A stretch of DNA of 34,490 nucleotides, from contig CALXFK010000097.1 of the NCBI GenBank assembly GCA_944387575.1, forward strand, positions 1 through 34,490, in the 5' to 3' direction. The stretch is from an uncultured Clostridia bacterium (GTDB lineage: Bacteria > Bacillota > Clostridia > Oscillospirales > JAAYOS01). This document shows positions 6,090-31,841 of this stretch, piece by piece. The notes under the pieces were generated by a model that was not told the DNA's origin, made no database searches, and saw nothing but the letters and a program-made list of their open reading frames with translations. The translations under genes and the position numbers were made by a program. Within the stretch, counting starts at the first letter, position 1. Each line of letters opens with the position of its first letter.

Positions 6090-6704
6090 CCCTTTTTCGG
6101 GAGGTGTTTTGCCGCGACAGGCAAATCGGCGCACCATTGCCATCGCCAGCACCGTTCCGAGCGCCGCGCAGACCGCGCCGCTTGCGGCTCCCGCGAGCAC
6201 GTCGGTTAAATAGTGGACGTGTAGCCAGACGCGCGAGAGGGCGATGATTCCGGCGAGCAGGAATGCGCCTGCCGAGACGAGGAGCGCTGTCCTCATGCCC
6301 GCTCCCGCGCCGAACGGTTGTGACCGGCGCAGGGTGAACGCGAGCGCGAACGCGCACGCAAATGAACTTGCGGTGTGTCCGGACGGGAAGGATGCGCCGC
6401 CCGGCGGGTCGATAAGCGGCTCGATGGCAAAGCGGATGAACGGTCTTGCGCGGTCAACGAGGGTTTTGAGCACCAGATTGTTCAGCAGCAGGCAGAATAC
6501 CAGCGAGAACGCGAGCGCAGCTCCGCAGCCGCGTGTGCGCCGGAATATGAGGAGCGCCGCCGCGAGCACGATCCAGATAAGCCCGCCGTCCCCGGCGTGG
6601 GTCACCGCGCGCATGAAGGCGTTGAGAGCGGGGGTGTGCAGCCGGTCGAGTGCGTCGACCACCGAGAGGTCGAGGCTGTAAATTGCGTCTATTATTGCGG
6701 TCAT
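6084..6704 (-). CDS. PAP2 family phosphatase (membrane lipid phosphatase)
   Basis: The protein is 206 residues from the ATG at 6704. That ATG overlaps the carboxypeptidase stop codon (ATGA), so translation is probably coupled; the frame is open upstream but reads as arginine-rich shadow. It has about five or six membrane segments and all three PAP2 phosphatase motifs: K80-TLVDRARP, then SFPSGH (105-110), then SRVWLHVHYLTD with R158, H164 and D168. These carry the catalytic His residues and nucleophile partners. Members dephosphorylate undecaprenyl pyrophosphate, phosphatidylglycerol phosphate or phosphatidate at the membrane face. Undecaprenyl pyrophosphate recycling (BcrC-like) is possible but cannot be told from sequence. 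It is the last gene of the run that begins with the CobW pair. Confidence 0.92.
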   Translation of the reverse strand: MTAIIDAIYSLDLSVVDALDRLHTPALNAFMRAVTHAGDGGLIWIVLAAALLIFRRTRGCGAALAFSLVFCLLLNNLVLKTLVDRARPFIRFAIEPLIDPPGGASFPSGHTASSFACAFALAFTLRRSQPFGAGAGMRTALLVSAGAFLLAGIIALSRVWLHVHYLTDVLAGAASGAVCAALGTVLAMAMVRRFACRGKTPPEKGL

Positions 6705-8224
6705 AAGTTTGTACAGAGGTCGCCGTACTTCCGCTCGAGGTAGCGGGTAAAGCAGGATGGGTCGAACGGGGCTCCGCAGCAGCGCTCTAAGAGGTCGCCG
6801 GGGTCGTACATGCAGCCGTGCCTCCACACGTGTTCCCGCAGCCATTCGTTTACCGGCAAGAGGTCGCCGGACGCGACCGCCGCGTCCACGTCCACGGTTT
6901 TGCGCATGACCTCGAGCATCTGAGCGCCGTACGCCGAACCGAGCGCGTAGCTCGGGAAGTAACCGATGCCGCCGCCCGACCAGTGGCTGTCCTGGAGGAC
7001 GCCGTGCGCGTCGTCCGGCACGGTCACTCCGAGGTACTCGCCCATCTTTTCGTTCCAGAGGCGGGGGAGGTCGCCGACCTCGAACCTGCCCTCCATCACC
7101 CCGCGCTCAAGCTCGTAGCGCACCATGATGTGCAGGCAGTAGGTGAGCTCGTCCGCTTCAATGCGTATGAGCGACGGCTCTGCGCGGCAGACCGCGCGGT
7201 AGAAGCTCTCCGCGTCCACGTCCGCCGCCTCCTCCGGGAATATCTCGCGGAGCACCGGGACTATCAGACCGGCAAACGCGCGGCTGCGCCCGATTATATT
7301 CTCGTAGAACCGGCTCTGGCTCTCGTGGATGCTCATCGAGATGCCTCCTGCAAGCCCGGTCCCGTCGTACTCCTCGCCGATGCCGAGCTCGTAGAGCGCG
7401 TGACCGCCCTCGTGAATGACGCTGAACATTGAACTGAGGACGCTGTTTTCGTGGTAGTGCGTGGTTATGCGCACGTCGCTGCGGGTAAACCCGCTTGTGA
7501 ACGGGTGCTCGGTCTCGCCGATTATACAGTGGTCGCGGTCGAGCCGGAGGATGTCCATGAGCCGCCCGGAGAGCAGGCGCTGTTTCCAGACCGGGAATCG
7601 CCGCGAGGTGAACGGCTCGGGCTTGGAGGCGGCGAGATACGCGGAGACGCGTGACATCAGCGGCACTATCCTCTCGCGCAGCGCCGCGAAGAACGCGTCA
7701 CATTTCTCGGTCGTGAGCCCGCGTTCGTACTCGTCGAGCGCGGTGTCATAGACCGGGGTGTCCGGCGCGATGTACCGGTTAAAGCGGATGTTGGTCTCGA
7801 ATATCTTTTCGAGGTATGGGCGGAAGAGCGCAAAGTCGCTCCGCTCCTTTGCGTCGCGCCAGACTGCGCCCGCCTCGTTTACAAGCCGGTTGTACGCGAC
7901 ATATTCGTCTGCCGGGATGCGGGAGAGCCGCTCGATGCGGCGGAGCATCTCGCTGACGTCGCGCAGGGTGATGGGGTCGAGCTCGTCGGAACGGCTGCGG
8001 AGTTCGCGCAGAAGTTCGGTGGTGTCGCTGCCGGTCTGGAGCTCGTAGGTCACGCCGGACAGCACCGCGAGCGTCTGCCCGCGGAGAGCGGCGCTCCCCC
8101 TCGGAGCGACCGTGTCCCCGTCGTATTGGAGCACGCCGGTCGCGTGCGAGTATGCGGCAAGCGTCCTACGCAGGCTGTCGAAGCGGGACAGGAGCTCGGA
8201 GGTGGAGGTGGTAATAGCCGGCAT
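6701..8224 (-). CDS. Carboxypeptidase Taq (M32 family metallopeptidase)
   Basis: The 507-residue protein is a full-length M32 zinc carboxypeptidase, a cytoplasmic enzyme that trims C-terminal residues from peptides. The zinc motif HEGGHALYELG (H271, E272, H275) and the downstream HESQSRFYEN (300-309, providing the third ligand Glu) are diagnostic. The N-terminal ATGVLQYDGDTVAPRGSAAL and later RYELERGVMEGR, VPDDAHGVLQDSHWSGGGIG and FPSYALGSAYGAQ segments are also family hallmarks. GGAGTGA lies 7 bases before the ATG. There is no signal peptide. It follows the HD gene by six bases and overlaps the PAP2 gene, so it is operonic. Confidence 0.96.
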   Translation of the reverse strand: MPAITTSTSELLSRFDSLRRTLAAYSHATGVLQYDGDTVAPRGSAALRGQTLAVLSGVTYELQTGSDTTELLRELRSRSDELDPITLRDVSEMLRRIERLSRIPADEYVAYNRLVNEAGAVWRDAKERSDFALFRPYLEKIFETNIRFNRYIAPDTPVYDTALDEYERGLTTEKCDAFFAALRERIVPLMSRVSAYLAASKPEPFTSRRFPVWKQRLLSGRLMDILRLDRDHCIIGETEHPFTSGFTRSDVRITTHYHENSVLSSMFSVIHEGGHALYELGIGEEYDGTGLAGGISMSIHESQSRFYENIIGRSRAFAGLIVPVLREIFPEEAADVDAESFYRAVCRAEPSLIRIEADELTYCLHIMVRYELERGVMEGRFEVGDLPRLWNEKMGEYLGVTVPDDAHGVLQDSHWSGGGIGYFPSYALGSAYGAQMLEVMRKTVDVDAAVASGDLLPVNEWLREHVWRHGCMYDPGDLLERCCGAPFDPSCFTRYLERKYGDLCTNL

Positions 8225-8230
8225 TTTACG

Positions 8231-8806
8231 TCACTCCTGTTCCCCGCACTCGGCGGCGATGGCGCTTTCGCAGTCACGCATGGCTTCGAGGGTGCGCGAG
8301 AGGAGCTCGTCGAGCTCCCAGCCGAGCATCTCTGCGCCCTGCTTTATCACGTCGCGCGAGCAGCCGGCGGCGAACCGCTTGTCCTTGAACTTCTTTTTCA
8401 GGCTGGAGAGCTCCATGTCGGAGCAGCTCTTTGAGGGGCGCATCCGCGCCGCGGCGCCTATGAGCCCGGTGAGCTCGTCGACGGCGAAGAGGACCTTCTC
8501 CATCTCGCAGTCCGGCTCAATGTCCGAGCAGAGCCCGTAACCGTGGCTGCATACCGCGTGAATCATCCGCTCGTCCGCGCCGCCCTCGCGCAGGAGTTCC
8601 GGGGCGCGGGTGCAGTGTTCCTCGGGCCAGCGCTCGAAGTCGATGTCGTGAAGCAGACCGACCGTTGCCCAGAAGTCCGCCTCGTCCTGGTACCCGAGCT
8701 TTTCGGCAAACCAGCGCATCACCGCTTCGACGGTGTATGCGTGCGCGATGTGGAACGGTTCGGAGTTATATTTCTTCAGAAGAGCGATTGCTGCGGTTCT
8801 TTCCAT
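8231..8806 (-). CDS. HD domain-containing hydrolase
   Basis: The protein is 191 residues from the ATG at 8806, preceded by GGAGG and beginning [14 protein letters not shown]. The open frame runs 29 codons further up but has no ribosome site there and lies within trkH. HD-superfamily metal ligands are visible: an early His (FHIAHAYTVE), the HD doublet in GLLHDIDFERWPEEHC, a later His in MIHAVCSHGYG, and the distal Asp in FAVDELTGLIGA. This short HDIG-like subgroup is common in Firmicutes and is usually annotated as a hydrolase of unknown substrate, perhaps a nucleotide phosphohydrolase. Its start lies inside the last 41 bases of trkH, a sizeable overlap that suggests coupled translation. Confidence 0.85.
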   Translation of the reverse strand: MERTAAIALLKKYNSEPFHIAHAYTVEAVMRWFAEKLGYQDEADFWATVGLLHDIDFERWPEEHCTRAPELLREGGADERMIHAVCSHGYGLCSDIEPDCEMEKVLFAVDELTGLIGAAARMRPSKSCSDMELSSLKKKFKDKRFAAGCSRDVIKQGAEMLGWELDELLSRTLEAMRDCESAIAAECGEQE

Positions 8807-21892: not shown

Positions 21893-22237
21893 ATGCGTGT
21901 ACGCGATATTAAAGAGATTCTTGAGGCGGAGCTGCTCTGCGGCGAGGAACTTCTGGACACCGAGGTGCTCAGCGCCTGCGGTTCCGATTTGATGAGCGAC
22001 GTGCTTGCGTTTGTCAAGGAACAGTCGCTGCTGCTCACCGGGCTTGTGAACCCGCAGGTGGTGCGCACCGCTGATATGATGGATATGCGCTGCATAGTCT
22101 TTGTGCGTGGCAAGCGCCCCGACGAGGGGACGCTCGCGCTTGCGCGGGACCGGGGCATCGCGGTTATGTCCACGGGTCTGCGGATGTACAGTGCATGCGG
22201 GAAGCTGTATGCCGCCGGGCTTGCAAGCGAGGTGTGA
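21893..22237 (+). CDS. DRTGG domain protein (first copy)
   Basis: The 114-residue protein is a free-standing DRTGG domain. MRVRDIKEILEAELLCGEEL opens the domain and VLAFVKEQSLLLTGLVNPQV (about 38-57) plus CIVFVRGKRPDEGTLALA are typical. DRTGG domains occur in HPr kinase N-termini, in CBS-containing pyrophosphatases and as single proteins in clostridial hydrogenase operons. They are thought to bind small ligands, with no proven biochemical role for the single-domain type. AAGGAG lies 9 bases before the ATG. It is the first gene of the plus-strand locus and is one base from the ATPase gene. A paralogue follows at 25410. Confidence 0.88.
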   Translation: MRVRDIKEILEAELLCGEELLDTEVLSACGSDLMSDVLAFVKEQSLLLTGLVNPQVVRTADMMDMRCIVFVRGKRPDEGTLALARDRGIAVMSTGLRMYSACGKLYAAGLASEV

Positions 22238-22238
22238 G

Positions 22239-22670
22239 ATGGACGCGCTGAAACTGCATTACGACGTTGACGGCGAGGACTTCAGCGCAGCGGGCGAGGC
22301 GTCGAGCAATGTGAAGAAGGTGCTGCGGCAGCTCGGGTTCCCGCAGGAGGCGATACGGCGCACCGCGATCTGCATGTATGAGGGCGAGATAAACGTCGTG
22401 ATACATGCGGGCGGCGGCTTTGCGGACGTCACCGTCGAGCCGGAGAGGATAACTATTGTACTTACCGACCACGGTCCCGGCATCCCGGACGTGGAGAAGG
22501 CGATGAGCGAGGGGTGGTCGACCGCCCCGACCAAGGTGCGCGAGCTCGGGTTCGGCGCGGGGATGGGTCTGCCGAATATGAAGAGGTACTCCGACGAGTT
22601 CAGGATAGACACCACCGTCGGGGTCGGAACCACTGTGACGATGACTGTGAATGTGACGCAGGGTCAATAG
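22239..22670 (+). CDS. RsbW-like ATP-binding protein (anti-sigma-factor kinase type)
   Basis: The 143-residue protein is a single GHKL ATPase domain of the RsbW/SpoIIAB type. The N-box is in ICMYEGEINVVIHA (about 44-57), the G1 box is LTDHGPGIPDVE, and the G2 region is LGFGAGMGLPNMKRYSDEF. It lacks a histidine phosphoacceptor domain. RsbW-family proteins phosphorylate a STAS antagonist and bind a sigma factor, but neither partner is encoded nearby, so the target here is unknown. The ATG at 22239 is one base after the preceding stop codon; the longer open frame upstream is a shadow of the DRTGG gene. It is 32 bases before the HydS-type gene. I infer a signalling role linked to the Fe-S protein. 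Confidence 0.87.
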   Translation: MDALKLHYDVDGEDFSAAGEASSNVKKVLRQLGFPQEAIRRTAICMYEGEINVVIHAGGGFADVTVEPERITIVLTDHGPGIPDVEKAMSEGWSTAPTKVRELGFGAGMGLPNMKRYSDEFRIDTTVGVGTTVTMTVNVTQGQ

Positions 22671-22702
22671 AGACAAACTGATGAATGGGAGGCGAGCGTC
22701 CG

Positions 22703-24007
22703 ATGCTGAATTCGGTGACGCTGGACAAGGACAGATGCCGGGGCTGCACGACCTGCATGAAACACTGTCCGACTGAGGCAATCCGCGTGCGGCGGGGACG
22801 CGCGCATATACTTGCGGACAGGTGCATAGACTGCGGGAACTGTATCCGGGTCTGTCCGCACCACGCCAAGAAGGCGCTGAGCGACCCGCTCGACGTCATA
22901 AATGAGTTTGAGTACAGCGTGGCGCTGCCCGCGCCGACACTGTATGGGCAATTTCGGAATATCGACAATATCGAGATAGTACACGACGGGCTGCGTGCGC
23001 TCGGGTTCAGCGACGTGGTGGAGGTCGCCGCCGCAGCCGACCGAATATCCGGGCTCACTCGCGAGATGATGGAGAAGGACGGGCTTCCGCGCCCGCTGAT
23101 TTCGTCGGCGTGTCCGGCGGTGGTGCGGCTGATAAAGATGCGGTTCCCGGCGCTTGTGCCGAATATTTCACAGTTTATGGCGCCGGTCGAGCTTGCGGCG
23201 CTGCGCGCCCGCTCAAAGGCGGTCTCGGTGACAGGGCTCCCGCAAGAGCGGATAGGAGTGTTCTTCATCACTCCCTGCCCCGCAAAGGTGAGCGCCTTGA
23301 AGGAGCCGGAGGGCTTTGAAAAGCCGCTTGTAGACGGTGTTATCTCGATGAACGACATATACAAGCGCCTGCTTGCGGTCATGAAGAAGGGCGGCGAGCA
23401 GCCTAAGGGCGAGGCTGAGAGCGGCATGGTCGGGGTCGGCTGGGCGCGCTCCGGCGGGGAGGCGTCTGCGCTCCCGCGTACCCGTCACCTGTCGGTCGAC
23501 GGCATCGAGAACATAATAAAAATACTCGAGGACGTGGAGGACGACATGCTGCCCGAGGTCGAGTTCCTCGAGCTGAATGCGTGCAACCAGGGCTGCGTCG
23601 GCGGATGCCTGACGGTGGAAAATCCGTACGTCGCAAAGACGCGCATAACGCATATAATGAGCCATCTCCCGGTGCGCAATATCAAGCCGCAGACCGGCGA
23701 GAGCGAACTGATGAGCATCGACCGCGACCTTGAGAGCGACGAGGTGTGGCGGCTGGACGAGGACGTGAGCGTCGCAATGGAGAAGTACGCGCGCATTGCA
23801 AAGCTCACCGCCGAACTCCCCGGACTCGACTGCGGGTCGTGCGGCGCGCCGAGCTGCCGCGCGCTTGCCGAGGACGTCGTGCTCGGTTTCGCAAGCGAGG
23901 AGGACTGCATATTCCGTATGCGCGAGCGTATGCAGTACATGACCGGCTCGGCGGATGCGGACGCATACCTGCCGCCGCCGTTCCGCAAGGGCAGCGTGAG
24001 CGAGTGA
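22703..24007 (+). CDS. HydS-type (putative sensory) [FeFe]-hydrogenase homologue
   Basis: The 434-residue protein starts at ATG 22703, 10 bases after GGAGG. Domains in order: two [4Fe-4S] ferredoxin motifs (C12, C15, C18, C22 and C41, C44, C47, C51); an H-cluster domain (about 70-330); and a C-terminal Fe-S motif of the PF04060 type (C377, C380, C385, C402). All four positions expected to bind the H-cluster are Cys: C137 in SSACP, C192 in TPCPAK, and C294 and C298 in NACNQGC. However, Ala136 replaces the proton-transfer Cys of TSCCP, Thr190 replaces Met of MPC, and the GGGQP tail of the third motif is lost. Ala at this first position is described for the sensory enzyme HydS of Thermotoga maritima. 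No PAS domain is present, so output may pass to the neighbouring ATPase. A purely structural or electron-transfer role is the alternative. Confidence 0.87.
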   Translation: MLNSVTLDKDRCRGCTTCMKHCPTEAIRVRRGRAHILADRCIDCGNCIRVCPHHAKKALSDPLDVINEFEYSVALPAPTLYGQFRNIDNIEIVHDGLRALGFSDVVEVAAAADRISGLTREMMEKDGLPRPLISSACPAVVRLIKMRFPALVPNISQFMAPVELAALRARSKAVSVTGLPQERIGVFFITPCPAKVSALKEPEGFEKPLVDGVISMNDIYKRLLAVMKKGGEQPKGEAESGMVGVGWARSGGEASALPRTRHLSVDGIENIIKILEDVEDDMLPEVEFLELNACNQGCVGGCLTVENPYVAKTRITHIMSHLPVRNIKPQTGESELMSIDRDLESDEVWRLDEDVSVAMEKYARIAKLTAELPGLDCGSCGAPSCRALAEDVVLGFASEEDCIFRMRERMQYMTGSADADAYLPPPFRKGSVSE

Positions 24008-24013
24008 CCGGTT

Positions 24014-24102
24014 CGAAAAACGGCGAAAACACGGGAAAATATGCATGACTGCTGCCGGAGGACGCTGCGGACGTCAGCGCGGAATTTGAAATAGCGGAAT
24101 AG
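24014..24102 (+). pseudogene. Collapsed remnant of a third copy of the lipoprotein gene
   Basis: Bases 24076-24120 are identical to the 45 bases ending just before the start codon of the second lipoprotein gene (24673-24717). They include the gene's last codons (Ser-Ala-Glu-Phe-Glu-Ile-Ala-Glu-stop), so the 3' end of a copy precedes the first intact gene. Further left, CGAAAAACGGCG (24014-24025) matches codons 3-6 of the intact genes. CTGCCGGAGGAC (24053-24064) recalls their Cys-lipobox and Pro-Glu-Asp region, in the same frame as the tail. I read this as one copy reduced by internal deletion. The tail match is certain; the 5' matches are suggestive. Confidence 0.6.
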
Positions 24103-24120
24103 CGCGGGAGGTGTCGGAGT

Positions 24121-24699
24121 ATGTCACGAAAAACGGCGTTCGTTTTTGCGGTCGCGATTGCCGCGTTTGCCGCAGTTTTCACCGGCTGCCGGCAGCAGGC
24201 GCAGACGCCGGAGGACGTCCTGCGGGACTGGTACGGCAAGAACCTGTTCATTTCGGAGGACGGCGGGTACTACTGGTCGAGCTCGCCGAGAGATATAGAG
24301 CCGGGCGGCAGCCTGCCGCAGACCGCGCTGCCGATTACCGACCTGTGCGAGCTTGAGGACGGAAGCGTGTCCGAAGTGTCGTTTGCGGCGGTGACCGATG
24401 AACTTTCTGTTTCAGCCGACGAGGCGGAGGTCGTGTGGCTGACCGGCGCGGACGGGGTGGAGTTCTCCCCGCACTACTGGATTGAGATATACCTCGACGG
24501 CGAGTGGTACTGCCTGAACGTGTACGCGGGGAGGTCCGGCGAGCGGATCGCGCTCGCGCCCGGAATTGAGCGGGAGGATTCGTTCGGGCTGAACGGCGAG
24601 TACCCGGCGGGGAAGTACCGGCTGATTGGGGAGTATTCCGCCTCCGGCGACCCGACCGGGCTCAGGTATCTGAGCGCGGAATTTGAAATAGCGGAATAG
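24121..24699 (+). CDS. Lipoprotein of unknown function, tandem copy 1
   Basis: The 192-residue protein has a lipoprotein signal (RKTAFVFAVAIAAFAAVFTG, Cys23), placing it outside the membrane. A short segment TPEDVLRDWYGKNLFISEDG follows. The C-terminal half (HYWIEIYLDGEWYCLNVYAG through YPAGKYRLIGEYSA and LSAEFEIAE) resembles a bacterial Ig-like fold of the Big_14 type, with the typical DGEWY and GKYRLIGE strands. Function is unknown; a surface binding role is likely. GGGAGGTG lies before the ATG. It sits between the HydS-type gene and the second DRTGG gene and is nearly duplicated by the next gene. Its placement inside a redox locus may be incidental insertion or a real functional link. Confidence 0.82.
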   Translation: MSRKTAFVFAVAIAAFAAVFTGCRQQAQTPEDVLRDWYGKNLFISEDGGYYWSSSPRDIEPGGSLPQTALPITDLCELEDGSVSEVSFAAVTDELSVSADEAEVVWLTGADGVEFSPHYWIEIYLDGEWYCLNVYAGRSGERIALAPGIEREDSFGLNGEYPAGKYRLIGEYSASGDPTGLRYLSAEFEIAE

Positions 24700-24717
24700 C
24701 GCGGGAGGTGTCGGAGT
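24673..24717 (+). repeat. Repeat unit boundary (copy of 24076-24120)
   Basis: These 45 bases, spanning the last codons of copy 1 and the ribosome site of copy 2, are identical to 24076-24120. The offset is exactly 597 bases, which is also the distance between the two start codons. They mark the period of the tandem duplication. Confidence 0.93.
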
Positions 24718-25296
24718 ATGTCACGAAAAACGGCGCTCGTTTTTGCGGTCGCGATTGCCGTGTTTGCCGCAGTTTTCACCGGCTGCCGGCAGCAGGCGCA
24801 GACGCCGGAGGACGTCCTGCGGGACTGGTACGGAAGACGCCTGTTCATCTCGGAGGACGGCGGGTACTACTGGTCGAGCTCGCCGGGAAATATCAATCCG
24901 GACACCGGCATGCCGTGGATGACGATTCCGCTTGTCGGGCTGTTTGAGCTTGAGGGCGGAGACGGGTCTGAAGTGTCGTTTGCGGCGGTAAATGAGGAGG
25001 TGTCCGTCTCCGATAGCGAGGTCGCGGTCGTGTGGCAGACCGGCGCGGAGAATATAAGCGCGGCGGTCGACTACTGGATTGAGATATACCTCGACGGCGA
25101 GTGGTACTGCCTGAATGCGGACGTCGCCACCTTCGGCGAGCGGAGCGAACTCGTGCCCGGCGTCGAGAGGGAGGACGCGTTCGCGCTGGACTACTACTAC
25201 CCGGCGGGGAAGTACCGGCTGATTGGCGATTACAGCCCGACCGGCGAGCCGACCGAGCACAAATATCTGAGCGCAGAATTTGAAATAGCGGGATAA
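24718..25296 (+). CDS. Lipoprotein of unknown function, tandem copy 2
   Basis: This is a 192-residue paralogue of the preceding gene, the same length with lipobox Cys23 and the same Ig-like C-terminal half (YWIEIYLDGEWYCLNADVAT, YPAGKYRLIGDYSP, LSAEFEIAG). The first about 50 residues and the strands around DGEWY are nearly identical between copies. Residues about 52-95 (NPDTGMPWMTIPLVGLFELE) and about 130-150 differ clearly, so the copies have diverged in specific stretches after an ancient duplication, or conversion keeps the ends alike. GGGAGGTG precedes the ATG, copied from the repeat boundary. A long inverted repeat follows at 25315. Confidence 0.82.
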   Translation: MSRKTALVFAVAIAVFAAVFTGCRQQAQTPEDVLRDWYGRRLFISEDGGYYWSSSPGNINPDTGMPWMTIPLVGLFELEGGDGSEVSFAAVNEEVSVSDSEVAVVWQTGAENISAAVDYWIEIYLDGEWYCLNADVATFGERSELVPGVEREDAFALDYYYPAGKYRLIGDYSPTGEPTEHKYLSAEFEIAG

Positions 25297-25409: not shown

Positions 25410-25751
25410 ATGAAGGTAAACGAGCTTGCGGAAGGGCTGTCGCTCGAGTGTCTGTACGAGGGCGACGGCGAAAGAGAGGTCGAGGGCTGCTACTGCGGCG
25501 ACCTGCTGAGCTGGGTCATGGGCAGGGCGAGCGCGGGCGATGCGTGGGTGACGATAATGTCGAACGTCAACGTGGCGGCGGTCGCCGCGCTTGCGGATGT
25601 GGCGTGCGTGATACTCGCGGAGGGCGTGGAGCCGGACGAGGCGCTGCGCGGTCGGTTCGAGAGGCTGGACTGCGCGGTGTTCCGCAGCGGTATGGCGGCG
25701 TATGAGCTCGCATGGAGGATACACGGACTGCTTGAGGGGCGGCAGGAATGA
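25410..25751 (+). CDS. DRTGG domain protein (second copy)
   Basis: The 113-residue single DRTGG-like domain is related in layout to the first copy: MKVNELAEGLSLECLYEGDG, then GCYCGDLLSWVMGRASAGDA and CVILAEGVEPDEALRGRFER, with a C-terminal helix. It carries three extra Cys/Tyr residues near 27-30 (GCYCGD), typical of the variant next to PHP proteins in clostridial hydrogenase loci. Function is unknown; a ligand-binding or signalling role is inferred from context. AAAGGAGGG lies before the ATG. It overlaps the PHP gene by four bases (ATGA), indicating coupled translation. Confidence 0.85.
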   Translation: MKVNELAEGLSLECLYEGDGEREVEGCYCGDLLSWVMGRASAGDAWVTIMSNVNVAAVAALADVACVILAEGVEPDEALRGRFERLDCAVFRSGMAAYELAWRIHGLLEGRQE

Positions 25752-26650: not shown

Positions 26651-27145
26651 ATGCCCAATACCAAGACGTTGGTGAGCTTCAGGGGTACGCCTGAGCAGGA
26701 GGCGGAGCTCCGGAAGTTCATCGAACAAACCAAGGACGAGCCCGGCTCGACCATGCCCATAATGCAGAAGGCGCAGGAGATATATGGGTATCTGCCCGAA
26801 GAGGTGCAGATAATCATAGCTGAGGCGACCGGGGTCCCGCTCACCGAGATCTACGGAATAGCGACCTTCTACGCCCAGTTCTCGCTGAACCCGAAGGGTG
26901 AGATCCAGGTGAGCGTATGTCTCGGTACTGCCTGCTACGTCAAGGGCTCGGGCGACGTGCTCGAACGTGTCGTAAAGAAGCTTGGTTGTGAGGCAGGCTC
27001 GATTACCGCCGATGGGCGCTTCTCGGTTGATGCAACGAGGTGCGTCGGCGCGTGCGGACTTGCTCCTGTCATGATAGTGAACGGCGAGGTCTACGGTCGT
27101 ATCAAGCCGGATGAGGTTGATGCGATCCTCGAGAAGTACATGTAA
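26651..27145 (+). CDS. hydC: NuoE-type [2Fe-2S] subunit of NAD-linked hydrogenase (HydC)
   Basis: The 164-residue protein is a complete NuoE homologue: an N-terminal helical bundle (MPIMQKAQEIYGYLPEEVQI, EATGVPLTEIYGIATFYAQF) and a thioredoxin-fold [2Fe-2S] domain with all four ligands, C90 and C95 in CLGTAC and C131 and C135 in CVGAC. In trimeric [FeFe] hydrogenases this subunit (HydC) passes electrons between the NuoF-like subunit and the rest of the complex. AAGGAGG lies before the ATG. It heads the HydC-ATPase-ferredoxin-HydB-HydA run. Confidence 0.95.
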   Translation: MPNTKTLVSFRGTPEQEAELRKFIEQTKDEPGSTMPIMQKAQEIYGYLPEEVQIIIAEATGVPLTEIYGIATFYAQFSLNPKGEIQVSVCLGTACYVKGSGDVLERVVKKLGCEAGSITADGRFSVDATRCVGACGLAPVMIVNGEVYGRIKPDEVDAILEKYM

Positions 27146-27159
27146 GGTCTGGCGCCGCC

Positions 27160-27705
27160 ATGAAGGAGATCTCACTAAATCTGCTCGATATTGCGCAGAA
27201 CTCGGTTTCTGCCGGAGCGACATTGATAGAGCTCACGGTGCGCGAGTCGCAGGCTGAGGACATCGTGCTGATGAGTGTCGCGGACAATGGCAAGGGGATG
27301 AGCCCCGAGTTTCTCGCGCGGGTGACCGACCCATTCACCACCACCCGCACCACCCGTCCGGTGGGCATGGGGCTTCCGCTTCTGAAGATGGAGGCGGAGA
27401 TGACCGGTGGGGGGCTGGAGATAAAAAGCGAGCTTGGGCGCGGGACGACGGTAACCGCCACCTTCCGCCGCTCGCATATCGACACGCCGCCGCTCGGCGA
27501 CCTGAAGGGAACGGTGGTCACGCTTGTGCAGGGCAGTCCGGATATCGACTTTGTCTATCGCCGTGAGACCGACCTGGGGCAGTTCGTGCTCTCGACAAGG
27601 GAGATGCGCGAGCAGCTCGGTGGGGTCCCGCTCGACGAGCCGGAGGTTCTCGCGTGGATAGGCGAGTATATCGAGGAAAACGAGCAGAGCCTGCAGGGTG
27701 AGTAA
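27160..27705 (+). CDS. Histidine-kinase-like ATP-binding protein without phosphoacceptor domain
   Basis: The 181-residue protein is a GHKL/HATPase_c domain by itself. The N-box is LLDIAQNSVSAGATLIEL (8-25), G1 is VADNGKGM (47-54), an F/lid region DPFTTTRTTRPVGMGLPLLK follows, and the last box is GRGTTVTATF. There is no HisKA or sensor domain, and the C-terminal 60 residues (from about 121) carry a separate small acidic region. A like-sized ATPase is regularly found between nuoE and the ferredoxin gene in clostridial hydrogenase operons. Its substrate is not known. It starts 14 bases after nuoE. Confidence 0.88.
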   Translation: MKEISLNLLDIAQNSVSAGATLIELTVRESQAEDIVLMSVADNGKGMSPEFLARVTDPFTTTRTTRPVGMGLPLLKMEAEMTGGGLEIKSELGRGTTVTATFRRSHIDTPPLGDLKGTVVTLVQGSPDIDFVYRRETDLGQFVLSTREMREQLGGVPLDEPEVLAWIGEYIEENEQSLQGE

Positions 27706-27882: not shown

Positions 27883-28254
27883 ATGGCTAAAAGCATAGCT
27901 GAGCTGAAGGCTATACGTGATCGTATGCAGGCGCAGATGAACCTGCGCAAGGACGACGGGGACAGCATCCGCGTCGTGGTGGGCATGGCGACCTGCGGTA
28001 TCGCGGCGGGCGCGCGTCCGGTTCTTGCAGCAATAGTGGACGAGGTCGGCAAGCGTGAGCTTGCGGACGTCAAGATAAGCCAGACCGGCTGTATCGGCGT
28101 TTGCCGTCTCGAGCCGATAGTTGAGGTTTTCGAGCCGGGCAAGGAGAAGGTAACATATGTCAATATGACCGAGGACAAGGCGCGCCGCATGGTAAGCGAG
28201 CATCTTGTAAATCACCGTGTGGTGTCCGAGTACACCATCGGCGCGGCTGAGTAA
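27883..28254 (+). CDS. Thioredoxin-fold ferredoxin-like protein with three Cys
   Basis: The 123-residue protein resembles the [2Fe-2S] thioredoxin-like ferredoxin domain of NuoE and NuoF. RVVVGMATCGIAAGARPVLA is the first ligand loop and ISQTGCIGVCRLEPIVEVF the second. Only three Cys exist: C38, C70 and C74. The second Cys of the usual C-x4-C is Gly43, so the cluster would need a non-Cys ligand or be absent. The N-terminal helix (about 1-25) is a small extension. GGAG lies before the ATG. It is 12 bases before the hydB gene, and proteins of this form recur at that place in trimeric hydrogenase operons. Its role in electron transfer is inferred. Confidence 0.87.
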   Translation: MAKSIAELKAIRDRMQAQMNLRKDDGDSIRVVVGMATCGIAAGARPVLAAIVDEVGKRELADVKISQTGCIGVCRLEPIVEVFEPGKEKVTYVNMTEDKARRMVSEHLVNHRVVSEYTIGAAE

Positions 28255-28266
28255 GGGGGAAGAGAG

Positions 28267-30054
28267 ATGAATTTTGCGAGAGCACATATACTCGTCTGCG
28301 GCGGTACAGGCTGCACCTCTTCCAAGAGCCCCGAGATAATCGCCGAGTTCGAGTCCCGCCTCAAGGAGAACGGGCTTGCCGATGAGATAAAGGTCGTGCA
28401 GACCGGCTGCTTCGGTCTCTGCGCGCTCGGTCCGATAGTCGTCGTCTACCCGGAGGGCATCTACTACTGCCAGGTCAAGGTGGAGGACGTCGAGGAGATA
28501 GTCAGGGAGCACATGCTCAAGGGGCGCGTCGTGGAGCGCCTGCTTTACAAGGAGAGCGAGGAGGTCAGCGAATCGCTCAACGACACCGACTTCTACAAGA
28601 AGCAGACCCGTATCGCGCTGCGTAACTGCGGCGTTATCGACCCGGAGAATATCGACGAGTACATCGCTTACGACGGATACCAGGCTCTTGCCAAGTGCCT
28701 GACCGAGTACACTCCGCAGCAGGTCATCGACCTTGTGAGCGCGAGCGGACTTCGCGGGCGCGGCGGCGCCGGCTTCCCGACCGGGCGCAAGTGGCAGTTT
28801 GCGGCGGTCGAGAAGGGACCGGTCAAGTACGTCTGCTGCAACGCCGATGAGGGCGACCCGGGCGCGTTCATGGACCGTTCGGTGCTCGAGGGCGACCCGC
28901 ACAGCGTGCTCGAGGCGATGACCATTGCCGGTTACGCAATCGGTTCCAGCCAGGGTTACATCTATGTCCGTGCCGAGTACCCGATAGCGGTTCAGCGTCT
29001 GAAGAAGGCGGTTGAGCAGTCCCGTGAGTACGGGTTCCTCGGAAAGAACATATTCGATTCCGGATTTGACTTTGATATAGACGTCCGTCTCGGCGCAGGC
29101 GCGTTCGTCTGCGGCGAGGAGACCGCGCTTATGACCTCGATAGAGGGTCACCGCGGCGAGCCGCGTCCGCGTCCGCCGTTCCCGGCGGTCAAGGGTCTGT
29201 TCGGCGTGCCGACCATCCTCAACAACGTCGAGACCTATGCGAATATCCCGTGGATACTCGTCCACGGACCGGAGAAGTTCGCCGAGATGGGTTCGGGCGC
29301 GTCGAAGGGCACCAAGGTCTTCGCGCTCGGTGGCAAGATAAAGAATACCGGTCTTGTCGAGATACCGATGGGCACTCCGCTCCGTCAGGTCATCGAGGAC
29401 ATCGGCGGCGGCTGCCCGAACGGGAAGAAGTTCAAGGCTGCGCAGACAGGCGGACCTTCCGGCGGCTGCATCCCCGCTTCGCTCATCGACACTCCGCTCG
29501 ATTATGAGAGCATGGCGGCAATCGGTTCGATAATCGGTTCCGGCGGACTTATCGTCATGGACGAGGACAACTGCATGGTCGACATCGCGAAGTTCTTCCT
29601 CGAGTTCCCCGTCGACGAGAGCTGCGGAAAGTGCTCGCCCTGCCGTATCGGCACCCGCCGCATGCTCGAGATACTCAATAAGATAACTTCCGGTCAGGGC
29701 ACGCTCGAGGATATCGACACCCTCGAGGAGCTCTGCAACCACGTCAAGAACAACTCCCTGTGCGGACTGGGTCAGACCGCGCCGAACCCGGTGCTGTCCA
29801 CCCTTCGCTACTTCCGCGACGAGTATATCGCCCACGTTGTGGACAAGAAGTGCCCGGCGGGAGTGTGCAAGGCGCTGCTCAACTACTCCATCGACCCGGA
29901 GAAGTGCAAGGGCTGCACGCTCTGCGCTCGTAACTGCCCGGTCGGCGCTATCACCGGTTCGGTGCGGCAGCCGCATGAGATTGACAAGTCCAAGTGCATA
30001 AAGTGCGGCGCCTGCATTGAGAAGTGCAAGTTCGACGCCATATACAAGGCGTAA
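28267..30054 (+). CDS. hydB: NuoF-type NAD(H)-binding flavoprotein subunit of [FeFe] hydrogenase (HydB)
   Basis: The 595-residue protein has three parts. Residues 1-90 form a thioredoxin-fold [2Fe-2S] domain (C11, C16, C48, C52). The central NuoF module contains the FMN/NADH motif GLRGRGGAGFPTGRKW (161-176), CNADEGDPGAFMDR, and the [4Fe-4S] motif ESCGKCSPCRIGTRRM. The C-terminus adds two [4Fe-4S] ferredoxin motifs (CKGCTLCARNCP and CIKCGACIEKC). This is the layout of HydB in electron-bifurcating hydrogenases, where it takes electrons from NADH and reduced ferredoxin. GGGGGA lies before the ATG. It is 14 bases upstream of hydA. Bifurcation is predicted from the subunit set and cannot be proven here. 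Confidence 0.96.
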   Translation: MNFARAHILVCGGTGCTSSKSPEIIAEFESRLKENGLADEIKVVQTGCFGLCALGPIVVVYPEGIYYCQVKVEDVEEIVREHMLKGRVVERLLYKESEEVSESLNDTDFYKKQTRIALRNCGVIDPENIDEYIAYDGYQALAKCLTEYTPQQVIDLVSASGLRGRGGAGFPTGRKWQFAAVEKGPVKYVCCNADEGDPGAFMDRSVLEGDPHSVLEAMTIAGYAIGSSQGYIYVRAEYPIAVQRLKKAVEQSREYGFLGKNIFDSGFDFDIDVRLGAGAFVCGEETALMTSIEGHRGEPRPRPPFPAVKGLFGVPTILNNVETYANIPWILVHGPEKFAEMGSGASKGTKVFALGGKIKNTGLVEIPMGTPLRQVIEDIGGGCPNGKKFKAAQTGGPSGGCIPASLIDTPLDYESMAAIGSIIGSGGLIVMDEDNCMVDIAKFFLEFPVDESCGKCSPCRIGTRRMLEILNKITSGQGTLEDIDTLEELCNHVKNNSLCGLGQTAPNPVLSTLRYFRDEYIAHVVDKKCPAGVCKALLNYSIDPEKCKGCTLCARNCPVGAITGSVRQPHEIDKSKCIKCGACIEKCKFDAIYKA

Positions 30055-30068
30055 GGAGGATAATGTAA

Positions 30069-31841
30069 ATGGATATGGTTAACGTCAAGGTAAACGGCGT
30101 CGAAATACAGGTGCCGGCCGGAAGCACTGTCCTCGAAGCCGCGCATATCGCGGGAGTGGATATCCCCACCCTCTGCTATATGAAGGAGATAAACGCCATC
30201 GGCGCGTGCCGTATGTGCGTCACCGAGGTCAGCGGGGCGCGCGGACTTGTCGCCGCGTGCGTCTACCCGGTCGCCGAGGGCATGGAGATAAACACCAACT
30301 CGCAGAAGGCTTTCGCCGCGCGGAAGATGACCCTCGAGCTCATACTCTCCAATCACCGTATGGAGTGCCTGACCTGCTCGCGCAGCCAGAACTGCGAGCT
30401 CCAGGCTCTTGCCAAGGAGTACGGTGTGGAGCAGGTCCGCTTCGGCAACCCCAAGGAGATACAGCCGGACATCGAGTGCTCGACCGCTCACCTCATCCGC
30501 GACAACTCCAAGTGCGTTCTCTGCCGCCGCTGCGTGGCAGTCTGCCGTTACAATCAGCACGCCGCGGTCATCGGACCGTCGATGCGTGGTTTCTCGACCC
30601 ATATCGGTTCCGCGTTTGAGCGCGGACTGGGCGAGGTCGCGTGCGTGAGCTGCGGTCAGTGCATCGCGGTCTGCCCGACCGGCGCTCTGACCGAGGTCGA
30701 TAACACTGCCGACGTCTGGGCGGCTCTTGCCGACCCGTCGAAGCACGTCGTCGTCGGCAGCGCCCCGTCGGTGCGCGCCGCGCTCGGCGAGGAGTTCGGT
30801 ATGCCGATAGGCACCAATGTCGAGGGCAAGATGGCGACCGCTCTGCGCCGCCTCGGCTTCGACGCGGTGTTCGATGTCAACGCGAGCGCCGACCTCACCA
30901 TCATGGAGGAGGGTCACGAGTTTATCGAGCGCCTCACCAACGGCGGCGTCCTCCCGCTGATAACCTCCTGCTCGCCCGGATGGATACGCTTCTGCGAGCA
31001 GTACTACCCCGAGTTCATCCCGAACCTGTCGAGCTGCAAGAGCCCGCAGCAGATGTTCGGCGCGATGATGAAGAGCTACTATGCAAAGAAGAAGGGGCTC
31101 GACCCGAAGGACATATATGTCGTGACCGTCATGCCGTGCACCGCGAAGAAGTACGAGGTGCGCCGTCCCGACCAGTCGTCGGTCGACGGTCTGTGGGACG
31201 TTGACGCGACCATCACCACCCGCGAGCTGGGCAAGATGATACGCCGCGCAGGCATCGATTTCGTCTCGCTCGGGGACAGCGGTTTCGATCCCGAGTTCGG
31301 CGCGTTCAGCGGCGCGGGAGTCATCTTCGGTGCGACCGGCGGCGTCATGGAGGCTGCTCTGCGTACCGTCGTTGAGGTCGTCAGCGGCAAGGAGCTTCCG
31401 AAGCTCGAGTTCACCGAGGTTCGCGGAATCGAGGGCATCAAAGAGGCGAGCTACCAGGTCACCGACGACCTCACCGTCAAGGTCGCGGTCGCGAACGGTC
31501 TTGAGAATGCGTCCCGCCTGCTCGAGAAGATCAAGAAGGGCGAAGCGAACTACCATTTCATCGAGATCATGGCGTGCCCCGGCGGCTGCGTCAACGGCGG
31601 CGGTCAGCCGATACAGCCCGGCAAGATCCGCAACTTCGTCGACCTGCGCAAGGAGCGTGCAAAGGCGCTTTATAACCAGGACGACGCGATGAACCTCCGC
31701 AAGAGCCACGAGAGCCCGCTCATGAAGGAAGTTTACGGCGACTTCCTCGGCGAGCCCGGCAGCCACCTCGCACACGAGCTGCTGCACACCAAGTACTATG
31801 CCCGTCCCAAATACCCCGGATTCGAGGCGGACAGAGCCTGA
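30069..31841 (+). CDS. hydA: [FeFe] hydrogenase catalytic subunit HydA (trimeric, NAD-linked type)
   Basis: The 590-residue protein makes or oxidises H2. Domains in order: [2Fe-2S] (C36, C47, C50, C64); His-Cys [4Fe-4S] (H96, C100, C103, C109); two [4Fe-4S] motifs (C149-C159 and C192-C202); H-cluster domain with L1 TSCSPGW (299-305), L2 MPCTAKKYE (355-363), L3 MACPGGCVNGGGQP (501-514); and a C-terminal small-subunit-like tail (about 535-590). The second Cys of the usual TSCCPGW is Ser302. AGGAGG lies 9 bases before the ATG. It ends the operon, followed by a strong terminator. No HydE/F/G maturases are in this window and must be elsewhere. Confidence 0.97.
   Translation: MDMVNVKVNGVEIQVPAGSTVLEAAHIAGVDIPTLCYMKEINAIGACRMCVTEVSGARGLVAACVYPVAEGMEINTNSQKAFAARKMTLELILSNHRMECLTCSRSQNCELQALAKEYGVEQVRFGNPKEIQPDIECSTAHLIRDNSKCVLCRRCVAVCRYNQHAAVIGPSMRGFSTHIGSAFERGLGEVACVSCGQCIAVCPTGALTEVDNTADVWAALADPSKHVVVGSAPSVRAALGEEFGMPIGTNVEGKMATALRRLGFDAVFDVNASADLTIMEEGHEFIERLTNGGVLPLITSCSPGWIRFCEQYYPEFIPNLSSCKSPQQMFGAMMKSYYAKKKGLDPKDIYVVTVMPCTAKKYEVRRPDQSSVDGLWDVDATITTRELGKMIRRAGIDFVSLGDSGFDPEFGAFSGAGVIFGATGGVMEAALRTVVEVVSGKELPKLEFTEVRGIEGIKEASYQVTDDLTVKVAVANGLENASRLLEKIKKGEANYHFIEIMACPGGCVNGGGQPIQPGKIRNFVDLRKERAKALYNQDDAMNLRKSHESPLMKEVYGDFLGEPGSHLAHELLHTKYYARPKYPGFEADRA

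Follow-up and report, generated by a model that had tools for sequence, protein, structure and literature searches.

The window that we analysed, 34,490 nucleotides of DNA from an uncultured Clostridia bacterium, encodes an [FeFe]-hydrogenase homologue, here called HydS-D, that keeps the cysteines of the H-cluster and has alanine at the proton-transfer position. Does such a protein turn over H2 or sense it, and if it is a sensor, through which proteins would its signal leave? The first-pass annotation of this DNA had proposed an H2 or redox sensor that signals through separate partner proteins. The sensory part of this proposal has been in print for group D since 2012, and the annotation restates a published outline: Carere 2012 classed the M2e enzymes as sensory, as they lie near kinases and bifurcating hydrogenases (PMC3561251), and Land 2020, who characterized TamHydS of Thermoanaerobacter mathranii, proposed a sensory role for group D. 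That study described TamHydS as lacking a PAS domain, with a C-terminal cluster shared by groups C and D and a histidine-kinase-like ATPase encoded next to it, and raised the question of how the signal exits the protein (PMC8163306).

HydS-D retains an H-cluster site

Pfam profiles matched Fe_hyd_lg_C (98.1 bits), PF04060 (46.9 bits) and two Fer4 domains in HydS-D, giving a layout of two N-terminal [4Fe-4S] motifs, the H-domain and a C-terminal Cx2Cx4Cx16C site. A Pfam scan of the protein found no PAS domain. The longest open reading frame covers 22685-24007 (440 amino acids) and has an internal ATG at 22703; because GGGAGG lies just 5′ of this ATG, the 434-residue start is the likelier of the two.

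Individual residues were placed by their columns in CpI. C137, C192, C294 and C298 proved to be the H-cluster ligands, as the first-pass annotation had read them; among the sequences compared, their columns do not vary in group D (141) or group C (19), and hardly any group B sequence departs from them. The three departures that it had named were also borne out: A136 falls in the CpI C299 column, T190 replaces the methionine of the MPC motif (CpI M353), and GGGQP is missing (GCVGGCLTVENP). In addition, N292 falls in the CpI M497 column. We built an AlphaFold model (43 aligned sequences; pLDDT 89, pTM 0.87) and compared it with the PDB: the top matches were all [FeFe]-hydrogenases, with the D. 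desulfuricans, CpI, CbA5H and TmHydA structures best. Because the closest relatives are 59-66% identical and the model matches [FeFe]-hydrogenases, the residue pattern lies far beyond chance. A degenerate or ferredoxin-like protein is ruled out by the Pfam domains, the residue table and the matches of the structure model.

The departure of the canonical second-sphere residues (Cys299, Met353, Met497 and GGGQP) might also be expected of a structural pseudo-hydrogenase in which the H-cluster is never assembled. We consider this highly improbable, given that neither the four ligands nor the group D proton path varies and that the genome encodes the maturases HydG (928 bits) and HydF (537 bits), both over cut-off; a radical-SAM HydE candidate adjoins HydG. 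Moreover, TamHydS, in which Ala likewise stands at C299 and neither Met is kept, accepts a synthetic [2Fe] cofactor and shows activity (PMC8163306).

HydS-D is a member of group D

The comparison drew on one shared genome set and comprised 141 relatives that score as group D, together with 62 sequences of group A, 23 of group B and 19 of group C. Groups A and B were anchored by NCBIfam curated models on the members scanned, and group C was assigned by length, backed by PF04060 and PAS matches in some members. A glutamate at the Tam E252 column (E253 in HydS-D) was found in all 141 group D sequences and in none of the A, B and C sequences compared, and the equivalents of Tam E289 and D265 are kept in HydS-D as E290 and D266. 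The H2 chemistry of TamHydS depends on E252/E289 (PMC10407848). Alanine occupies the C299 column in 90% of the group D sequences compared, whereas cysteine does so in 62 of 62 from group A. Thr at the M353 position (44% of group D) and Asn at the M497 position (66%) are, judged by these columns, normal for the group. The C-terminal cysteines are 100% conserved in the group D sequences compared, and their spacing in HydS-D agrees with that published for C379/C404 of TamHydS.

In the trees, groups A, B, C and D each formed one side of a branch, and HydS-D fell within D (SH-aLRT 100). TamHydS itself was outside the tree; its stand-in was a Tam-like sequence (L162), 49% identical to HydS-D, that was chosen by published residue numbers of TamHydS: all seven that were checked agree, as do both Met replacements. 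Because support for C and D as sisters was moderate and the AU test was uninformative, we claim only that D is separate.

By the trees and the matches of the AF2 model, HydS-D is neither a ferredoxin-like protein without an H-cluster pocket nor one of the catalytic group A or B enzymes. Membership of group A or B is ruled out by the tree, by scores below the cut-offs of the curated catalytic models (89.5 of 406 bits for TIGR02512 and 155 of 450 bits for TIGR04105), by the lack of Cys at the C299 position and by the absence of GGGQP. Group C HydS proper is ruled out as well, since HydS-D has neither a PAS domain nor the group C residues (Gly at the M353 position). On its sequence, HydS-D is a plain member of group D/M2e, the class of TamHydS. 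Among the 299 genomes sampled from the phylum, 117 encode a group D relative.

HydS-D shares with TamHydS its domain order, the Ala at the C299 position, the E252/D265/E289 path, the lack of PAS, the Cx2Cx4Cx16C site with neighbouring Asp and the histidine-kinase-like ATPase beside the gene. It differs at the M353 position (Thr, where TamHydS has Ser), at the M497 position (Asn, where TamHydS has Leu) and at Tam K35 (Arg instead of Lys), and two lipoprotein-like genes are inserted 3′ of hydS. The group C (M2f) proteins TmHydS, R. albus HydS and HfsB resemble it in their N-terminal clusters, H-domain, PF04060 cluster and proposed sensing, but they usually have PAS, carry Gly at the M353 position, lack E252 and lie on a separate side of the tree. 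The first-pass annotation had set the protein apart from T. maritima HydS by its missing PAS domain, which holds, and by its PF04060-like motif, which does not: the same C-terminal Cx2Cx4Cx16C site is common to groups C and D (PMC8163306; group C proteins of this order).

A conserved and partly fused gene cassette

Pfam matches agreed with the neighbourhood that had been read from the letters, in which hydS-D lies beside genes for an RsbW-like ATPase and a DRTGG protein, 5′ of a separate hydABC (Table 1).

Table 1. Features of the hydS-D locus, in window coordinates
Feature	Position	Strand	Basis
DRTGG protein 1, 114 aa, invariant DxxS	21893..22237	+	Pfam 27.1 bits (cut-off 25.2); conservation
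SpoIIAB/RsbW-like ATPase, 143 aa; N-box YEGEINVVIHA, DHGPGI, GFGAGMGLPN	22239..22670	+	Pfam HATPase_c_2 48.4 bits; PDB matches to anti-sigma F factor
hydS-D, group D (M2e) putative sensory [FeFe]-hydrogenase, 434 aa	22703..24007	+	Pfam, trees, residue table, structure model, GGGAGG 5′ of ATG
Codons A136 (CpI C299 position) and C137 (H-cluster ligand)	23108..23113	+	Residue table
Codon E253 (TamHydS E252), Glu unique to group D	23459..23461	+	141/141 in D, 0 in A, B, C; role in TamHydS from PMC10407848
C-terminal [4Fe-4S] motif C377-x2-C380-x4-C385-x16-C402 (PF04060), flanks D376 and D401	23831..23908	+	Pfam, residue table
DRTGG protein 2, 113 aa, invariant DxxS	25410..25751	+	Pfam 25.5 bits (cut-off 25.2)
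PHP-domain phosphoesterase, 245 aa	25748..26485	+	Pfam 28.4 bits (cut-off 26.4)
HydC-like NuoE, [2Fe-2S]	26651..27145	+	Pfam PF01257 165.6 bits
Second stand-alone HATPase, of hydABC operon	27160..27705	+	Pfam; syntenic in relatives
Trx-like [2Fe-2S] ferredoxin	27883..28254	+	Profile matches
HydB-like NuoF	28267..30054	+	Pfam Complex1_51K
HydA, group A6 catalytic [FeFe]-hydrogenase	30069..31841	+	NCBIfam NF040763 877 bits (cut-off 765)

Three further observations concern the window itself. Between hydS and the second DRTGG gene, positions 24076-25296 hold a tandem 597-nt duplication, comprising two 192-residue lipoprotein-like open reading frames (132 of 193 aligned positions identical) and a tail that resembles a third copy; these frames had no NCBIfam match, and the insertion is absent at that place in the family relatives L140, L141 and L156. 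The second HATPase (27160-27705) has conserved boxes of its own and is syntenic in most loci. The group A6 HydA reads TSCSPGW: the column of C300, a ligand of [4Fe-4S]H, is occupied by Ser, a feature that it shares with 90% of the group A sequences in the comparison.

Across relatives, hydS is embedded in a strongly conserved cassette of DRTGG, SpoIIAB-like ATPase, HydS, DRTGG and PHP. In a tally of deduplicated loci with enough flank, whose counts are lower bounds where start codons are misplaced, the ATPase lay upstream of hydS in 137 of 143 loci and a DRTGG gene did so in 132 of 143; downstream, we found DRTGG in 100 of 108 and PHP in 97 of 108, and all four partners occurred together at 89 of 106. 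The Tam-like genome that encodes L162 (L209) has the order drtgg1-ATPase-hydS-drtgg2-php-hydABC, as in the window. The position of the cassette relative to hydABC varies, being upstream, divergent or in a stretch without hydA.

Three kinds of gene fusion join these proteins. The ATPase is fused to the N terminus of HydS in 17 of 17 genomes of one order (both domains matched; one internal stop in 2 of the 17), DRTGG is fused to the C terminus of HydS (2 of 3, in two genera), and in another order 18 of 22 genomes encode DRTGG1 and the ATPase as one fused protein. Read in the usual way, such fusions imply that the proteins would work in contact. The conserved order and the three fusion kinds lend real support to the earlier idea of separate partner proteins. 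Of the 80 loci that span 15 kb or more, 25 showed no hydA, some of them being cut by contig ends.

A few loci depart from this composition. At L223 and L224, HydS and a DRTGG protein are present and the ATPase was not found; at L210 and L211, HydS and the ATPase occur without DRTGG or PHP and adjoin a sensor histidine kinase and a response regulator. L210 also encodes, beside the group D hydS, a 637-residue protein (6537-8447, reverse strand) with Fe_hyd_lg_C, PF04060 and a chemotaxis MCP signalling domain.

These arrangements bear on whether HydS-D might be a slow catalytic or electron-buffering enzyme, such as a high-affinity H2-uptake accessory of HydABC, with no sensory function. TamHydS does interconvert H+ and H2 reversibly, though slowly (PMC8163306), hydS often lies in one run with hydABC, and the two N-terminal [4Fe-4S] sites can carry electrons. 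Against this stand the remodelled proton path and the low rates. In addition, the proteins to which HydS is joined by fusion, or next to which it is nearly always encoded, are the SpoIIAB-like ATPase and DRTGG proteins and not redox subunits, and the cassette is also found without hydA in the locus examined. We regard an enzyme of this kind as unlikely.

Conserved residues of the partner proteins

The ATPase resembles SpoIIAB/RsbW in its GHKL fold, its E-xxx-N N-box and its G boxes. The Glu and Asn of the N-box and the G1 and G2 boxes are invariant or nearly so in 143 sequences, and the nearest solved structures in a PDB search were SpoIIAB. With 52.4 bits the protein falls short of the 135 bits that the SpoIIAB equivalog model TIGR01925 requires, and no STAS antagonist or sigma factor was seen among the conserved neighbours of the cassette. 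The cassette differs from SpoIIAB/RsbW partner switching, which involves SpoIIAA/RsbV and SpoIIE/RsbU, in that its partners are DRTGG and PHP proteins. In the PHP protein, the metal-ligand residues H8, H10, D42, H43, E68, H76, H154, D206 and H208 are present and are 96-100% conserved in relatives. A DxxS motif, invariant in both DRTGG families, is not apparent in AF1212, a DRTGG-like protein whose structure has been solved.

A candidate H2-gated switch

An H-cluster site, the group D proton path, maturases, a conserved and partly fused cassette, intact ATPase boxes and PHP ligands are all read directly from the genes. We favour, as the probable joint reading, that HydS-D is a group D sensory-type hydrogenase governing an H2-gated switch of the Ser/Thr-kinase type, which would act via the ATPase, DRTGG and PHP proteins. 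The H-cluster, inserted by HydEFG, would bind H2 slowly and with high affinity, with a Glu-based proton path replacing the Cys path. Binding would then change the conformation of HydS, and the upstream SpoIIAB/RsbW-like ATPase, which we infer to form one complex with the two DRTGG proteins, would read this change. Acting as a Ser/Thr kinase, or as a nucleotide-gated anti-sigma-like binder, the ATPase may target one of the DRTGG proteins or else a regulator downstream; the state would be reset by the PHP phosphoesterase. Most likely, the output would tune the bifurcating hydrogenase encoded by hydABC and the redox balance of fermentation. For TamHydS, changes in secondary structure on exposure to H2 are cited from earlier work in PMC13104023, a study in which H2 did not reduce the C-terminal cluster.

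HydS-D might instead use its H-cluster and Fe-S clusters to sense redox or ferredoxin state (or CO or O2) through the same partners, with H2 not its real ligand. The accessory clusters are fully conserved, the H-cluster of TamHydS reacts to CO and O2 as well as to H2 (PMC8163306), and the partner fusions are silent on which signal is read. By contrast, TamHydS has low affinity for CO and high affinity for H2 (PMC8163306, PMC10407848), and the E253 path to the azadithiolate amine, invariant in D, seems to be needed only by H2/H+ chemistry. We judge a sensor of redox state, CO or O2 to be rather improbable, somewhat more so than a slow enzyme.

Within the favoured reading of an H2-gated switch, a more specific version is possible and is put forward tentatively: an unnamed signalling module in which HydS would be the gas-sensing subunit, alongside a Ser/Thr kinase of SpoIIAB type, a PHP phosphatase and the DRTGG pair. 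H2 binding would gate the kinase, whose substrate would be the invariant serine of DxxS, and the three kinds of fusion suggest that the module is built as one complex.

A catalytically slow hydrogenase that signals to a GHKL-type ATPase is also found in the regulatory [NiFe]-hydrogenase system HoxBC/HoxJ. That system differs in its unrelated hydrogenase and cofactor, its PAS domain and its histidine phosphorelay; the role of HoxJ in this H2-sensing hydrogenase is described in PMC5707799.

The same genome carries other hydrogenases. A group C HydS on contig C76 (G000; L142:4244-7366, reverse strand) has a SpoIIE-type phosphatase and a Trx-like [2Fe-2S] protein as neighbours, a set that resembles hfsABC, and contig C16 encodes a group B hydrogenase. 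It is a tempting idea that the group D and group C loci may be the kinase arm and the phosphatase arm of one switch.

Implications for H2 signalling

A literature search for hydrogenases together with DRTGG returned nothing relevant; most subscription papers lie outside its coverage, and the partner set or the fusions may be reported in print. What plausibly goes beyond the published proposal is the naming of candidate partners, drawn from the cassette and the three fusion kinds. Group D proteins are common and are studied as H2 sensors without PAS, and the conserved cassette and the fusions name concrete candidates for their signalling partners. The fusions also make the question of signal transduction directly testable. 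If the proposal is true, the unnamed module would be a widespread route of H2 signalling in the phylum, free of both PAS and phosphorelay. A switch of this kind could determine the H2 output of fermenting gut and biofuel bacteria.
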